Below are positions 7,064-13,791 of a stretch of 21,922 nucleotides of DNA, piece after piece. The position numbers were made by a program, and so were the translations under genes. Every line of letters starts with the position of its first letter. Positions within the stretch are counted from its first letter, which is position 1. The stretch comes from a virus, in the IMG/VR virus record IMGVR_UViG_3300020411_004381, positions 1 to 21,922 of that record. The stretch is one strand, 5' to 3'. A model generated the notes under the pieces. It saw only the letters and a list, made by a program, of their open reading frames with translations. It was not told where the DNA came from and searched no databases.

Positions 7064-10000
7064 ATGCCTAATATACCAGGAATATCAGGATACACACAGC
7101 CCGGTGTTTTTGCTAGGGATCGTGTTGTGTCAAGAGGAGTTTCGATCCCTGGAGGGATACGAATCGCATGCATTATGGGAGAGGGGCTTCGAGAGGAGCT
7201 TGTTGTCGTAAGTGCAGCAGGATCTGGCGCTGATGGAGATGCCACAGTTAGCCCAACAGGAAGTGGTGACGGAAGATATTTTAGCTTAAATCGCGCTCCG
7301 GTTGTAAGCGGAAGAACTGAGCTTTATCTTAACGGCTCTCGCCTTTATGGCCAAGAGTCTTCAACCAGAACAAATGGTTCGTGGGACTCTGATGGCTTTT
7401 CTGGAGAGTTTGATTTCAGGCTTGATGTTTCAAACGGAGCAATAGAGCTTCAAGGCGCTTCGATAGGCGACCAAGATGGATTTATGTATTCTGCATCACC
7501 CATGAATACAGGTGATACAATAATTTTATCTGGAGAATGCGGAACTTCTGATCTTATATCGGTTGTTGACTCTAGTGCCCCAGAGGAGCGTTGGACGGTT
7601 AGATGTGTTGGCGTTGCTAGAGACTCAAATGGTGACGCAATTCCTGGAAGAGGAACCTTTACCGTTACCGGATCATCATCTGGAATGCTAAGAGATGAAA
7701 GCGGATCCCCATATCTTTGGGACAGCGGAACTATTGACTCCCCATCGGGAGGCTTGTCCGGATCTTCTTCTCCTACGCAAGGTGTTGTTGTTGCACAAGG
7801 TAACTCGGCATCTTCAGATGGGTATGGGGATTCAGATGATTTTTATCAAGATGGAACTCCGGTAGTAAGAACTCCTGGAGATGACTCAACTGATGAGTTT
7901 GATATTCCAGGCAATATATTGGCAGCAGGCCAAGTCATGTCCGGAGACTATTTAGTGGTTGATGGGGGAAATCCTGAGGAGATATCCGATATATCTTATG
8001 ATTCTGTACTTGATATAACAACAATTACGGTTGAAAATGCGGCATTAGATGCGACCGGCATTGCTACTCCATGGGCTATCTATGCTACAAATATGTTGAT
8101 TGATGATCCATCAGAAATTCATAATCATTTAGATGGGACCATAGAGTCAGGTAATGAGGGTAGCTTTGCAAGCTCAGATGTTGGCAAGGTAGTGGTTGTT
8201 TGTGGCGGCGAAGCTACTGGAAAATACTATATTACTGCCGTAAACTCTTCAAGAAGAGTTAGGCTTGCATCATTTGATGATGCGAGTATAGGGCTTCCAT
8301 CAGCTGATGCCGAGGTTGCCGGAACTACTACATCAGGAGGTTTGATTGAAGGCGGTGGATCTACACGGTTTTGCGTTCTTCAAACAAATGGGGTTCTTCT
8401 TTTTGGAATTCAGGCCCAAAGCATAGCGTCAGAGGTTGGAGATAAATTTTACATAGATGTTAAATCGAGAACCCTTAGCCTTGGAGACACCCTTGAGGCA
8501 AGATATATCTACGAGTTGGACCTTGAGGACCCTGAGTACTTCACGTCCGCACAGGGTCTTATGAATAAGCATGGTACGCCAAGCTTAACAAACACACTTT
8601 CTCTTGGTGCACAGATGGCGTTTGAGAATGGTGCACCTGCAATTTTGGCATTACAATGTAAGCCTCCTCTTCCGCGAAGAACATCTTCTTATATTTTAGC
8701 AGAAGCTAATGATGGCGTTGGTGGCTTCAGTGGTGGCAGTGAGATTGATGATTTATATTTTCCAATACCGCGTCCAGTCACAGGTCTTCTTGAGGGCCGT
8801 CCAGATATGGATACTCAAGTAAATATAATGATAATAAGAAATGGCTCTGAAACACAAATCTTTCCAAACAAGGTTGGCTTTTATAACTCACAGTATGAAA
8901 ATGGAACCGGGCAAACATCTTTTATTACAGGGCTTGATACTGCATACTCATATACGATAGTGAATACAGAAAGGGACGTTTTGGGCTCGGGCGAGTCAGG
9001 AAGCATATCGTCATCATCCGATGAGTTTTCAACTGCAGAGTTTGATTTTGATGGAGAAGATATAAATCCTGGAGAAGCAAGGATAGTGATTCAATCTTTG
9101 ACGAATGCCGCAGGCACTGTGCTAACCACTGTTGAAGATATATCAACATACTTATTTGGAGCAGATGCAGCAGCTGAGCCGGCAGAACTTTTTGTACAAA
9201 GAATATCTGATGATAATACAGTCGAAGTAACTTCCTTAGGTGGGCGTACAATAGAGGCAGGCCATGACGCAACAGATGTGCAATTCTATATTTACAATGA
9301 GAATTCTACCGGTGGAAATGCTGCATTGATGCTAAATAGGGACTTGGTTGATAATCAAATATTGCAACAAGGAGATGGAATCAGAATATCATATATAGAT
9401 GAAAGAGATGCTGATTATTTTGATGTAAACTGGTTTAGCGCATTTGAAAGGCTTGAGGCTGCAGATGCGCAAATGATTGTTCCATTGCCAACACAAAATA
9501 GATTTGGAATATTTAGAGCTGCCGTAAATCATTGTGAGACAATGAGCACTATTGCGATACAAAAAGAGAGAATGGCTCTTTTTGGCGCACAAAGAGGTGT
9601 GACGGCAGAGGCTCTAGTAGGTATAGAAGAACTGGCGGTTGAGGATATAGGGGTTATTGAGGGAGTACAGGGCGATGACCCAGAAGAAGTTCTTGATGGA
9701 AACATTGAAGATCTTGTTAATCTTAAGCTTAATGATAACTACACTAGCAATAGGGCAATATACTTCTTTCCAGATGAGATAGTAAGAAATGTTAATGGGA
9801 CAAATACCTTTATAGATGGTTTTTACATGGCAGCATGCGCGTCTGGTTGGCTATCTGCTAGGCAAAATGTAGCTATACCATTAACTTATAAGAAACTAAG
9901 CGGATTTTCTATCCTTAGAGATAAGGTATTTACAAAAACAATGCAGAATTCAATTGGTTCAGTTGGAGCAACTCTTGTTACACCAGTAACTGGTGGAGGC

Positions 10001-10336
10001 AAGATTCTTCACGCAAGAACAACAAGTAACTCTGGATTTGTTGAAGATGAAGAAATCTCAATAATGTTTATTAGAGATAGGGTTAAGGAGATCTTAAGAC
10101 AATCACTGCAAGGATTTCTTGGGACTGTAGAGAATCCAAATACGCAGGGTCTAATAACTGCTCGTATTATAAATATAATGTCGGGCCTTGTTAGTCAAGA
10201 GCTAATTACAGCATTTGAAAATGTAAGAGTTGAAAGAGACAAGGTTGATCCGAGACAATGGAATGTATTTGCTAGATTCCAACCATCATATCCAATAAAC
10301 TACATCTTCGTTGATCTCGAAGTTGGCGTAATTTAA
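7064..10336 (+). CDS. Contractile tail sheath protein (oversized, with inserted domains)
   Basis: A 1090-aa protein; start ATG 7064 with GGAGGA SD. It forms the contractile outer cylinder that drives the tube through the host envelope. The N-terminus (IPGISGYTQPGVFARDRVVS, then IPGGIRIACIMGEG) is the typical sheath start. The region at about 486-545 (DPEYFTSAQGLMNKHG, then GAQMAFENGAPAILALQ) fits the sheath core. The last 270 residues are the conserved sheath C-terminal domain: ERMALFGAQRG, FFPDEIVRNVNG, YMAACASGWLSAR, SILRDKVFTKTMQNSIGSVG, IMFIRDRVKEILRQSLQGF, PSYPINYIFVDLEVGVI. Most sheaths are about 350-700 aa. Here two Ser/Gly/Asp-rich, beta-rich segments (about 45-480 and 580-800) appear to be insertions that would project from the tail surface. 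Residues about 367-405 (DVGKVVVVCGGEATGKYYIT) resemble the repeated module in the 1213-aa fibre. The tube gene follows 16 bp later. Confidence 0.93.
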   Translation: MPNIPGISGYTQPGVFARDRVVSRGVSIPGGIRIACIMGEGLREELVVVSAAGSGADGDATVSPTGSGDGRYFSLNRAPVVSGRTELYLNGSRLYGQESSTRTNGSWDSDGFSGEFDFRLDVSNGAIELQGASIGDQDGFMYSASPMNTGDTIILSGECGTSDLISVVDSSAPEERWTVRCVGVARDSNGDAIPGRGTFTVTGSSSGMLRDESGSPYLWDSGTIDSPSGGLSGSSSPTQGVVVAQGNSASSDGYGDSDDFYQDGTPVVRTPGDDSTDEFDIPGNILAAGQVMSGDYLVVDGGNPEEISDISYDSVLDITTITVENAALDATGIATPWAIYATNMLIDDPSEIHNHLDGTIESGNEGSFASSDVGKVVVVCGGEATGKYYITAVNSSRRVRLASFDDASIGLPSADAEVAGTTTSGGLIEGGGSTRFCVLQTNGVLLFGIQAQSIASEVGDKFYIDVKSRTLSLGDTLEARYIYELDLEDPEYFTSAQGLMNKHGTPSLTNTLSLGAQMAFENGAPAILALQCKPPLPRRTSSYILAEANDGVGGFSGGSEIDDLYFPIPRPVTGLLEGRPDMDTQVNIMIIRNGSETQIFPNKVGFYNSQYENGTGQTSFITGLDTAYSYTIVNTERDVLGSGESGSISSSSDEFSTAEFDFDGEDINPGEARIVIQSLTNAAGTVLTTVEDISTYLFGADAAAEPAELFVQRISDDNTVEVTSLGGRTIEAGHDATDVQFYIYNENSTGGNAALMLNRDLVDNQILQQGDGIRISYIDERDADYFDVNWFSAFERLEAADAQMIVPLPTQNRFGIFRAAVNHCETMSTIAIQKERMALFGAQRGVTAEALVGIEELAVEDIGVIEGVQGDDPEEVLDGNIEDLVNLKLNDNYTSNRAIYFFPDEIVRNVNGTNTFIDGFYMAACASGWLSARQNVAIPLTYKKLSGFSILRDKVFTKTMQNSIGSVGATLVTPVTGGGKILHARTTSNSGFVEDEEISIMFIRDRVKEILRQSLQGFLGTVENPNTQGLITARIINIMSGLVSQELITAFENVRVERDKVDPRQWNVFARFQPSYPINYIFVDLEVGVI

Positions 10337-10352
10337 TATAGGAGAATAAACA

Positions 10353-10961
10353 ATGGCCGATTATCCAAAAACCGGAAGTGTTTTAGATGAAACAATAAGA
10401 ACAGCCTTATCTACGCAAATCATTATTATGGTTAATAATGAACCTGTTGGGGCGGTTCAGAGCTTTCAAGAAACACAAAACAGAACTCTCAAGCCAATTA
10501 CCGAGGTGGGTACTGACGGTATAATAGAGCTTGTTCCTTCTGGTGCAACAAGAACCTCCTTGACGCTAAGAAGAGTTGCTTTCGACGGCCTATCTATAAC
10601 AGAGGCTTTTTCTCGTGGATTTAGAAATATTCAGGCTCAAAGAATACCTTTTGATATAGTTGTTGTAGATCAGTTTACTGGAACAGATAATGATGCAGTT
10701 ATAACTACATACCATAATTGCTTTTTTGAAAGAATTGGTAAAACATATAGTAGTGACGACTATGTTGTTGTCGAAGATGCTTCTGTGCAAACAGAATACA
10801 TATCTTCGCTTAGAGGCGGAGAGGCCGTTGTTCTTACGCAAGGTGTTGGAGGCGGAAGACAGCTGGCGGGAACTCAGACTGATGATGTAGAGATTCTTGC
10901 AGACAGTGGAACAAGAAGGGGTTCTTTGGACTTCCCTGGTCTTATATCCGCAGCATTCTAG
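10353..10961 (+). CDS. Tail tube protein
   Basis: A 202-aa protein; ATG 10353 with GGAG at 10341-10344. It follows the sheath gene by 16 bp, the near-universal position of the tube gene in contractile phages. The sequence is all-beta with few charged runs and fits the tube fold: IIIMVNNEPVGAVQSFQETQ (first hairpin), IELVPSGATRTSLTLRRVAF, then RIPFDIVVVDQFTG and TYHNCFFERIGKTYSSDDYV, and a final strand VVVEDASVQTEYISSL. The C-terminal 40 residues are Gly/Thr-rich (TQGVGGGRQLAGTQTDD). It should assemble as stacked hexameric rings inside the sheath, with the tape measure protein in the lumen. It is followed by a strong terminator, as expected for the end of a highly expressed sheath-tube unit. 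Length is similar to that of other tube proteins (about 140-200 aa). Confidence 0.82.
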   Translation: MADYPKTGSVLDETIRTALSTQIIIMVNNEPVGAVQSFQETQNRTLKPITEVGTDGIIELVPSGATRTSLTLRRVAFDGLSITEAFSRGFRNIQAQRIPFDIVVVDQFTGTDNDAVITTYHNCFFERIGKTYSSDDYVVVEDASVQTEYISSLRGGEAVVLTQGVGGGRQLAGTQTDDVEILADSGTRRGSLDFPGLISAAF

Positions 10962-11040: not shown

Positions 11041-11066
11041 AATGCTTTAGATAAAAGGAGAGTGTT

Positions 11067-11531
11067 ATGGCTAGAAAAAAAGCTACCGTATCTTCCGATG
11101 GTCCGGAGTTAGAATTAGAAGATAAGGAGTTGGGGCCGAAGTTATCTGCTCCAAACCTTAGAGATCTAGTTTTTCTGGGATCAGTTGAGGATACAGTTCG
11201 TATTGGAAATTTTGAATTTAAAATTAGAACTTTAAACGGAAAGCAGCAAAAGGCAGCTTTATCTTTGACGATGCAAAAGGATGATGATGAAAGATTAGCA
11301 GTTTTGAGGAGTGCGATACTTGCTTCTGCAATTGTTAGCGTCAATGGTGCGCCATTAGAGTCTGCATATGAAGATTTAAATCCCGATGGTCCAAACTTAA
11401 GTGATTTAGATAAAAAAATATCTGTAGTTGAGTCATTGCAGACAAGCGTTGTTGACAGGCTGTACTTGCGATATGATGAGCTAACAAAGCTTGCAAATGA
11501 TGATGTTGAGGAGGATGCGCTAAAAAACTAA
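11067..11531 (+). CDS. Tail assembly chaperone, short form (lambda gpG-like role)
   Basis: A 154-aa product when translation ends normally at TAA 11529. The start is ATG 11067, with AAGGAG at 11055-11060. The N-terminus is acidic and disordered (residues 1-32). The core has a strand pair (VRIGNFEFKIRTLNGKQQ) followed by helices, with DERLAVLRSAILASAIVSVN then GAPLE; the 'R..ILA.AI.S.NG.PL' run is frequent in phage tail assembly chaperones. The C-terminus is acidic (NDDVEEDALKN). It sits between tube and tape measure, the fixed place of these chaperones. It should bind the tape measure protein and recruit tube subunits, and is not expected in the mature virion. The final codons CTA AAA AAC TAA form a slippery site, so a fraction of ribosomes should continue into the -1 frame. 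Confidence 0.8.
   Translation: MARKKATVSSDGPELELEDKELGPKLSAPNLRDLVFLGSVEDTVRIGNFEFKIRTLNGKQQKAALSLTMQKDDDERLAVLRSAILASAIVSVNGAPLESAYEDLNPDGPNLSDLDKKISVVESLQTSVVDRLYLRYDELTKLANDDVEEDALKN
11522..11528 (+). promoter_or_regulatory. Programmed -1 ribosomal frameshift site (A AAA AAC)
   Basis: The heptamer A AAA AAC is a canonical X XXY YYZ slippery sequence. It is in the correct zero-frame register (CTA AAA AAC) and immediately precedes the TAA stop at 11529-11531. A -1 slip places ribosomes in the frame that stays open to 11968. An SD-like GAGGAGG (11508-11514) lies 7 nt upstream, comparable to the stimulatory internal SD known from dnaX. No strong hairpin is seen 5-9 nt downstream; a weak CTTTGCA/TGCAGAG stem (11564-11570 with 11582-11588) lies too far away to be the usual stimulator. 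Confidence 0.87.
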
Positions 11532-11968
11532 CATCTGACATAGAGTCTTTATTGAGATGGGAGCTTTGCAAGATTTGGAAGTGCAGAGTTGACGATCCAA
11601 TATTTACTGGCATCAACCAGTATCAATGGGCATGGTATGCCAGAATGATACTGGAAGAAAAGAATAACGAGTACGAAAGAAATATAGATTTAATAGAGTA
11701 CTTGGCGTCATTCTGGAACTACGAGGCTGTTAAGGCAATCCAAGATGCAAGATCTATGGACGAAAGGCACAGCTTTGCTTCAGACAGAGAGTTTGAGGAG
11801 CAGGTTAAGAGTGGTGACTTTAAGGATAACGAGTATCTGGATGCAGTCAGAATAGCCAAAGAAAATACTAATTTAAATGTTAATAGTGATCAGATAACTT
11901 CTTCTGATAGATTTAGGGTTCCAAGGAGCATTGCTTCTTTAAGAAAGATTATAGAGGATGATGGCTAA
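11528..11968 (+). CDS. Frameshift extension of tail assembly chaperone (lambda T-like part of fusion)
   Basis: The -1 frame is open from the slippery site (first new codon CTA at 11528) to TAA 11966-11968. It adds 146 residues to the 154 of the upstream gene, for a 300-aa fusion. The only start-like codon near its beginning is TTG 11552, which has no SD. That argues for expression by frameshift rather than separate initiation. The extension is helical and aromatic/charged: RWELCKIWKCRVDDPIFTG, QYQWAWYARMILEEKNNEYE, IDLIEYLASFWNYEAVKAIQ. The 'QYQWAWYARMI' helix and acidic followers resemble the second domains of other phage chaperone pairs. By analogy with lambda gpGT, this domain should bind the tube protein while the first domain coats the tape measure. 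The stop overlaps the tape measure ATG by one base (TAATG). Confidence 0.82.
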   Translation, partial: LTSDIESLLRWELCKIWKCRVDDPIFTGINQYQWAWYARMILEEKNNEYERNIDLIEYLASFWNYEAVKAIQDARSMDERHSFASDREFEEQVKSGDFKDNEYLDAVRIAKENTNLNVNSDQITSSDRFRVPRSIASLRKIIEDDG

Positions 11969-13791
11969 TGAGTAAGGGCGGTTTGGCAGGGCTTTTAGCC
12001 CAGTTCTCAGGTACTGATGTAGCAGGATCAATAGAGAAGGTTGCAGATACGTTTAATGATTTAAATGTAAGCCTTACTGCATTTTCTGATGTTGCAAATG
12101 GTGCAAATGATAATTATACAAATCTTCTTAATGGGTTAATAAAGTTTGGGGATACAGTTGGTCAAGTAGACAAGGTTGTAACTGGGCTTTTTGGAACCAG
12201 CTCCAAGCTAGGAGTGTCTCTTAGCGCAGTACTTAAGCCGATGCGCCTAATTAGTCAGGGTGTTGGTGCATTTGCCCAAACACAATCTGCTTTTGCAGAG
12301 TTGGCAGGAGCAACAGACTCTCTATCAGCGGGAATTAGAGAGACATATTCTGAGTTTCATGTTTTGACAAATACGTTTGGTGGAACATATGAAGAGGCTC
12401 AAAGGTTATCTGTTTTATTTACAGATTTACAGAAAAAGTCTGGCTCTGAAGAATTTGGGTTTGTAAGCAGAAAAGAGCTTATGGATGTCGCAAATGCCAT
12501 GGAGACTAATAACTTAGAGATATCAAGAATGTCAGAAATAATCCCTTCTGCAGGAAGAGATATGGATCTATTAACTACTGCTGTTTTGCAGGCCGATGCA
12601 TTATCTATGAGCGCATCAGAGCATATGGGGTATCTTTCCAGCGCCATAATGAAAACTGGCTTATCCTCCAATGAGGCCTTTAAGCAAATGGCCGGATTTA
12701 ATGAGGTTGCCGATAAGACTGGTATGAGTACTGCCAAGATAGCATCAGGGCTTCAGTCCGCAGTAAATAACTTTCAGCAACTAGGGCTTTCTGCTGATTT
12801 TGCAAAGCCGCTAATGCTTGGTTTTGCAGATAGTCTTTCCGGGGTTGGCATTGGTATAGAAAATGCAATTGGTTTATCACAAGCTTTGACCAAATCACTA
12901 GCCGGACTCGGAGAGGATTATGGGATGGCACATCTTGTATCGCAATTAGGAGGGCTTGACTATGGCCAGGGTGGCAGCGCGCTATCATCAGGTATAGGCA
13001 TACAAAAGGCCATGCTTGATGCAGAGAGTACCGGTGACTTTGAATCACTAGGGGCAGAGTTAGCGGACGGTATGAAGACCATGCTTGAGGGATTTGGCGG
13101 AGGAGAGATAGTTACGGTTACTGATGCGGCAAATGATCCAAGCAAGGCATCTGCATTTTATGTTCAACAGCAGATGCTCTCAAATCAATTTTCAATGAGT
13201 CAGTCAGAGGCAACAAGGACTCTTGAGATGCTGCAGCAATTAGATGATGCAAACGCATCAGGTGATTCAGAGACTGCAAAGAGGCTTAGAGAGCAAATTG
13301 CTGATCAAAAGGCCGGAAGAAATGATACAATTTCTCTTATGGAAAAACAAAATGTGCATACAGCAGGAATATTTGCTCATGCGCAAATGCAGACGAGAAT
13401 GCAATCGATGATGCTAAGAGACGAACTTGGTGGCGGTATGCTAGATCAGATGAGGGCTGAAGCAGATGAGATGGGGAAAGCATTTATGGATGCCTCAAGA
13501 GAAGGCTTGAGGCCTGAGTATATTAAAAATGCCGCAAGGGCGCTTGAAGAAGGGCTTCAGGGCGGCTTAAGGGGCAGGGGAGAGGGTGCTAACGAAAAAG
13601 CAACTCTAACAGAGTCTGCTAGAGAAGCAGTGGTTGATGAGGTGGTGCCCGCTATGGAAGATGTAAACTGGGATGATGCGGCAGATGCGTTTAAGCAATT
13701 CTTCAAAGATCTTGAGGCAACAATTTGGAACTCTTCAAAGATTAGCGCACCATCTACCGGGTCGAACGCTCCACCGGTAGTAACTCCATAG
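11968..13791 (+). CDS. Tape measure protein
   Basis: A 607-aa protein; ATG 11968 overlaps the chaperone stop, with GAGG at 11954-11957. It is almost wholly helical, rich in Ala/Gly/Ser/Leu, and lies right after the frameshifted chaperones, all typical of a tape measure protein that fills the tube lumen and sets tail length. Visible parts: an N-terminal amphipathic repeat-like region (IEKVADTFNDLNVSLTAFSD), a Gly-rich hydrophobic stretch at about 70-110 (LGVSLSAVLKPMRLISQGVG), and a middle region of short helices with 'SSNEAFKQMAGFNEVADKTG' type repeats. The C-terminal third is more acidic (LDDANASGDSETAKRLREQI), and the tail (residues 540-607) is Pro/Ser/Thr-rich. No lysozyme, peptidase or transmembrane motif could be recognised with certainty. 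At the usual scale of about 1.5 angstrom per residue the tail would be near 90 nm. The length is modest next to the giant sheath and hub. Confidence 0.82.
   Translation: MSKGGLAGLLAQFSGTDVAGSIEKVADTFNDLNVSLTAFSDVANGANDNYTNLLNGLIKFGDTVGQVDKVVTGLFGTSSKLGVSLSAVLKPMRLISQGVGAFAQTQSAFAELAGATDSLSAGIRETYSEFHVLTNTFGGTYEEAQRLSVLFTDLQKKSGSEEFGFVSRKELMDVANAMETNNLEISRMSEIIPSAGRDMDLLTTAVLQADALSMSASEHMGYLSSAIMKTGLSSNEAFKQMAGFNEVADKTGMSTAKIASGLQSAVNNFQQLGLSADFAKPLMLGFADSLSGVGIGIENAIGLSQALTKSLAGLGEDYGMAHLVSQLGGLDYGQGGSALSSGIGIQKAMLDAESTGDFESLGAELADGMKTMLEGFGGGEIVTVTDAANDPSKASAFYVQQQMLSNQFSMSQSEATRTLEMLQQLDDANASGDSETAKRLREQIADQKAGRNDTISLMEKQNVHTAGIFAHAQMQTRMQSMMLRDELGGGMLDQMRAEADEMGKAFMDASREGLRPEYIKNAARALEEGLQGGLRGRGEGANEKATLTESAREAVVDEVVPAMEDVNWDDAADAFKQFFKDLEATIWNSSKISAPSTGSNAPPVVTP

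Follow-up and report, generated by a model that had tools for sequence, protein, structure and literature searches.

Bacillus phage G (NC_023719) encodes a chaperone frameshift pair, gp181/gp182, between its tail tube and tape measure genes. The gp181 gene ends GAA TTA AAA AAC TAG, that is, with an A_AAA_AAC heptamer abutting the UAG stop codon, and the joined product has been deposited as gp182; our literature search found no paper on frameshifting in this chaperone. In phage lambda the heptamer is a different one, and some further codons separate the slip site from the stop. The lambda −1 slip near the end of gene G yields the G–T fusion, gpGT, for tail assembly, and the pair is encoded upstream of the tape measure gene (PMC5009743). 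For two sets of phage chaperone pairs that have been surveyed, slip site and stop are on average 26 and 36 nt apart (PMC10885494); the literature that we found gives such averages and no per-phage list. Outside tail genes, Escherichia coli dnaX combines an A-rich heptamer with an upstream internal Shine–Dalgarno (SD) sequence as stimulator, and in a few bacterial dnaX genes the zero-frame stop directly follows the site (PMC5009743). A stop directly after the slippery sequence is also described for sites read by eukaryotic ribosomes (PMC4373837), which differ in having elaborate 3′ structures and in belonging to unrelated genes.

Here we analyse a 21.9-kb metagenomic fragment from IMG/VR (21,922 nt; the window), in which positions 11508–11531 very probably constitute a genuine site of programmed −1 frameshifting, of the lambda G/GT type. 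Its G protein is homologous to that of phage G (tblastn E = 1e-3 from a relative of the window, L063; predicted fold E = 2.3e-8 from the window itself), and the phage G extension begins SDTYSRIRWK where that of the window reads SDIESLLRWE. Phage G differs in its UAG stop, in lacking an upstream GAGGAGG, in a short 5-bp stem after the stop and in a longer T frame of about 250 codons. Lambda has a non-contractile tail, whereas the window carries a sheath gene. Sheaths related to that of the window occur in Eggerthella phage LE2-3, which reads CTA AAA AAA TAA (A_AAA_AAA abutting UAA), and in Rhodococcus phage E3, with G_GGA_AAA 3 nt before UAA; in Gordonia phage Stormageddon G_GGA_AAA lies 9 nt before the stop. 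Similarity to T was not found by tblastn in LE2-3 or E3. The LE2-3 genes (L106, MW679026 64339–64704) are annotated as two separate genes; with A_AAA_AAA at the chaperone stop and the −1 frame open, the pair is probably an unannotated frameshift.

Architecture of the site

The 3′ end of the G frame reads GAG GAG GAT GCG CTA AAA AAC TAA (Table 1). A preliminary description made from the sequence alone had reported GAGGAGG, a 7-nt spacer, A_AAA_AAC and an immediate TAA across 11508–11531, followed by a −1 frame open for 146 codons, and all of these elements are present. GAGGAGG occurs once on the + strand of the whole window. Because an upstream TGA shuts the −1 frame, a fusion could come only from a shift within about 21 nt, and the heptamer falls inside that stretch. 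The predicted G–T fusion is 300 aa long, with the junction ...DALKN-LTSDIESLLR....

Table 1 Features of the frameshift site and neighbouring genes in the window
Feature	Coordinates	Strand	Remarks
Sheath ORF	7064..10336		1090 aa
Probable tube gene	10353..10961
G ORF, gpG-like tail assembly chaperone, 154 aa	11067..11531	+	ATG start; AGGAGA 11056–11061 upstream
Internal SD-like GAGGAGG, candidate stimulator	11508..11514	+	7 nt 5′ of heptamer
Overlap where a −1 shift gives a fusion	11510..11531	+	TGA 11507–11509 shuts −1 frame upstream
Slippery heptamer A_AAA_AAC	11522..11528	+	In phase; canonical heptamer in 59/59 distinct sequences
Zero-frame stop TAA	11529..11531	+	Abuts heptamer; ends ORF 11067–11531
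−1 frame T-like extension, 146 codons	11528..11968	+	Open to 11965, stop TAA 11966–11968
Possible distal stem-loop, weak evidence	11550..11602	+	At least 21 nt 3′ of heptamer; window's clade
T stop/tape measure start overlap, TAATG	11966..11970		Tape measure ATG at 11968
Probable tape measure gene	11968..13791

The overlapping G and T frames sit between the tube and tape measure genes, as a G/GT-type pair requires, in the order sheath, probable tube, G, T and probable tape measure; E3, Stormageddon and phage G share this gene order. The lambda G/GT arrangement proposed in the preliminary description is supported by the overlap, the in-phase heptamer, the chaperone homology and the gene order. 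Downstream, the T stop and the tape measure ATG overlap as TAATG, which could couple translation of the tape measure to shifted ribosomes. The sheath ORF is matched by sheath profiles only at C-terminal residues ~914–1088 and thus has a very large N-terminal or inserted region; it was matched over its full length, at 57–81% identity, in the three large contigs tested.

The heptamer is conserved across a lineage of viral contigs

As a single query the G protein matched nothing in viral contigs, so we scanned IMG/VR with the T frame and profiles built from it. Counting the window, this recovered 60 distinct loci, and 59 of them extend across the junction; the contigs reach 332 kb in length. Searches of cultured phages with nucleotide and T-protein queries gave no match, and searches of genome contigs found no relatives.

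Every one of the 59 sequences carries an in-phase canonical X_XXY_YYZ heptamer, either AAAAAAA, AAAAAAC or UUUAAAA, with a UAA or UAG stop 0 or 3 nt after its last base. The distance is 0 nt in 45 sequences (AAAAAAA in 38, AAAAAAC in 7) and 3 nt in 14 (UUUAAAA in 12, AAAAAAA and AAAAAAC in 1 each). At other ORF ends in the same loci such a heptamer lies 0 or 3 nt before the stop in 5 of 273 cases, none of which has a −1 frame open for at least 80 codons. Outside the window's own clade, G is only 21–37% identical to the window's G, yet the heptamer is present throughout, and therefore the heptamer is kept while the protein drifts. What is kept is a slippery heptamer and not an A-run as such, since the 12 relatives with U_UUA_AAA have it one codon earlier, always with the stop 3 nt after it (L047, L059, L060, L063, L064, L066, L073–L075, L079, L083 and L089). 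Where the first 29 loci have an A-run heptamer, its first A comes from a CTA, TTA, ATA, GTA or TCA codon, with A invariably in the third position, and lysine at the heptamer is encoded by AAA, although AAG makes up 49% of the window's lysine codons. The G stop codon is UAA in 39 sequences, UAG in 20 and UGA in none; behind an A-run whose last base is A, a UGA there would place an ATG in the T frame, and the stop would be read by RF2 in place of RF1.

An alignment of relatives had been proposed as a check that heptamer and GAGGAGG are both conserved while surrounding codons drift. The heptamer behaves in this way, and no junction-spanning relative lacks it, a case that would have counted against frameshifting; the position of the SD varies (see below). 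Judged from these sequences, adjacency of slip site and stop is the rule throughout the lineage and a family trait. The preliminary description had seen in this placement a distinct variant: the placement is real and conserved, but as a rule of the lineage that is also found in LE2-3 and in cultured phage G, where the frames have already been joined, it is not new in itself. Against means of 26 and 36 nt, a layout of 0–3 nt is short but not unprecedented. The likeness to dnaX is also loose, extending to the A-rich heptamer and the upstream SD; dnaX uses A_AAA_AAG, has its SD 10 nt upstream together with a stem-loop, and meets an early stop in the −1 frame.

Identity of the two products

The first ORF is identified as a tail assembly chaperone from the profile matches of its homologues, its predicted fold and its position. 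Two tail assembly chaperone profiles, PHROG 2792 and PHROG 2992, match 18 and 16 of 52 homologues, respectively (best 2.2e-8); the window's own G has no significant family match, including to these two. Its predicted structure (mean pLDDT 78) finds Bacillus phage G gp181 and gp182 as best matches among viral models. Among solved structures, the best is the HK97 tail assembly chaperone (2OB9; Z = 7.9, rmsd 3.8, 98 aligned), followed by YqbN (3KLU; Z = 7.8). A Z of 7.9 is by itself indistinctive, and counts here because the top two matches are both of the phage tail-chaperone type and stand clear of the others (the third is at 4.6). T is predicted to be all-helical and has no solved match in the PDB; all 59 sequences conserve the extension, and its changes fall mainly at third codon positions.

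A hairpin follows the stop in nearly all relatives

A hairpin lies a few nucleotides after the heptamer in nearly all relatives. In the first set of 29 loci, the downstream stem is more stable than nearly all synonymous shuffles in 26, the three exceptions without a stable stem being L018, L019 and the window. Among all 59 sequences, L059 and L084 also fall above z = −1.9, yet have a recognisable interrupted stem. There are three main stem forms (GGAGCC..GGCTCC, AAAGCTCC..GGGAGCTTT and AGAGCTCCC..GGGAGCTCT), which follow the tree and whose 5′ strands occupy three codon registers, encoding EP, KSS or ELP. Across the 34 distinct sequences with the first form, 96% of the pairs remain intact and two changes are compensatory, a result equalled by 3 of 500 shuffles; the covariation is modest because much of the stem is invariant. 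Rfam returned no match. In two distant relatives (L094 and L098) with the heptamer one codon before the stop, the heptamer-to-stem distance of 7 nt is kept and the stop-to-stem distance is not.

An SD as stimulator throughout the family can be rejected, as typical members have no SD beyond codon expectation. The preliminary description had named an SD, instead of a nearby downstream hairpin, as the likely stimulator; for the family this fails, nearly all relatives having the hairpin, and it is plausible for the three-member clade of the window, which has a strong SD and no such hairpin.

Proposed mechanism

The explanation that we regard as very probable on the comparative evidence is that a short G chaperone is accompanied by a G–T fusion arising from a −1 slip on A_AAA_AAC. 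The gene at 11067–11531 would give the short tail assembly chaperone G. On a small fraction of ribosomes, tRNA-Lys on AAA and tRNA-Asn on AAC would slip by −1 just before UAA, and these ribosomes would read on through CTA ACA TCT... to produce the 300-aa fusion. By analogy with lambda, G would coat the tape measure protein and the rarer G–T would recruit the tail-tube protein. We infer slippage, its rate and this role in tail assembly from the anatomy of the site, its conservation in 59 sequences, and the homology and predicted fold of the chaperone. Stimulation in most of the lineage probably comes from the hairpin that directly follows the stop. The window's clade lacks this hairpin, and an internal SD a short way upstream (GAGGAGG in the window) may take its place, a substitution that we consider quite possible but somewhat short of even.

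In E. coli A_AAA_AAC works with low efficiency (PMC4066793; PMC5009743). IS elements (PMC4066793) and the g–t pair of a haloarchaeal virus (PMC5009743) nevertheless employ it, and both its low efficiency and its use elsewhere would fit a rare fusion. The low efficiency may also be held against the explanation, together with the 7-nt spacing of the SD, which is below the 9–14 nt reported for internal SDs in −1 shifts (PMC5009743) and is altered in the two nearest relatives. A further point against is a result cited in PMC4373837: when the HIV-1 slippery sequence was tested in bacteria, a stop as next codon lowered −1 frameshifting.

Alternative explanations

T might be translated independently, by initiation or reinitiation, for example starting at TTG 11552 or through coupling with the stop of G. 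This TTG is in frame and is the only start-type codon in the window's T frame before the first ATG, which lies 117 nt downstream; moreover, L019 has an ATG at +21 and L088 has TAATG at the stop. The TTG is not positioned behind the SD, nor does GAGGAGG have a T-frame start codon at SD distance, so the earlier remark that the extension lacks an SD-preceded start of its own holds. Across the 59 sequences no start is conserved in the T frame, 58 have none within 12 nt of the stop, and the first ATG usually lies 84–117 nt downstream, inside the conserved domain. The G genes of the set begin with ATG behind a GGAG- or GAGG-like SD, and thus SD-led initiation is normal here and T is without it. A single TAA-to-TGA change would supply an ATGA coupling start, which none of the 59 uses, and between the heptamer and TTG 11552 the T codons show conservation at the protein level (serine as TCT or AGC). 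On the evidence of the relatives we reject separate initiation as highly improbable. Slippage of RNA polymerase on the A-run, joining the frames in place of ribosomal slippage, would suit the seven consecutive A of most homologues; the window has only six, 12 homologues have UUUAAAA with four, the X_XXY_YYZ phase is always kept, and the conserved downstream hairpins fit a ribosomal stimulator. The in-phase heptamers, UUUAAAA included, argue for slippage by the ribosome, and we reject the transcriptional route as a shade less probable still. A frame break in a metagenomic fragment could also reflect a sequencing error or a decayed gene; 59 distinct sequences and cultured phage G share the break, with a heptamer in the same position, which already refutes this idea, and its probability is negligible.

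With ribosomal frameshifting preferred, the alternatives that carry weight concern what stimulates it in the window's clade. The window, L018 and L019 form a well-supported group (100/99), the position of which among the hairpin-bearing groups is not fixed by the tree; further members were sought in vain, and the SD question therefore rests on three sequences. Close to its stop the window shows no stem (−5.5 kcal/mol; compared with synonymous shuffles, z is about −0.4), and it lacks a stem-loop 5–9 nt downstream, the usual distance for a stimulator (PMC5009743), at which most of the wider family has one. All three hairpin-less members have strong anti-SD energies: −12.2 in the window, the strongest of the 59 sites, −10.5 in L018 and −9.3 in L019, matched by 0.1%, 0.7% and 2% of in-frame 22-nt coding windows, respectively. 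These values make an SD-stimulated site plausible in this clade. GAGGAGG may, however, be incidental to a real frameshift, reflecting Glu–Glu codons, with the clade using the bare heptamer and stop or the distal stem-loop at 11550–11602. The spacing from SD to heptamer varies (7 nt in the window, 16 nt in L018, 10 nt in L019); synonymous shuffles, a weak test, match the SD in fractions of 0.06, 0.20 and 0.08, respectively, so the match stems partly from a Glu-rich peptide; and hairpin and SD strengths are uncorrelated across the family (rho = −0.07, P = 0.57). The distal stem reaches z of about −2 (−1.5 to −2.3 over a 90-nt stretch) with one C–G/U–A pair change among the three sequences, but lies 21–33 nt from the heptamer, far from the usual 5–9 nt. 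It would be long and two-part and would run over conserved WELCKIWKC codons in all three. We judge an incidental GAGGAGG to be about an even call. The fuller proposal, that in this clade a 5′ internal SD replaces the 3′ post-stop hairpin of the lineage at a homologous stop-adjacent site, with the stop possibly tying the shift to release-factor activity, is tentative and on the unlikely side.

Implications

The sequences indicate that a lineage of large, uncultured myophages conserves a frameshift site of the G/GT type, with a layout common to the cultured Bacillus phage G. The G/GT rule is thereby widened to a broad lineage of such phages, and a layout with the slip site set against the stop codon (0–3 nt) is described. 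In phages of this kind the second half of the chaperone will probably escape gene callers. The possible exchange of an SD for a hairpin in the window's clade is a question worth testing. At a single homologous site the lineage varies naturally in heptamer, hairpin register and SD context, which makes it useful for testing how a low rate of frameshifting is set by stop codon, hairpin and SD.
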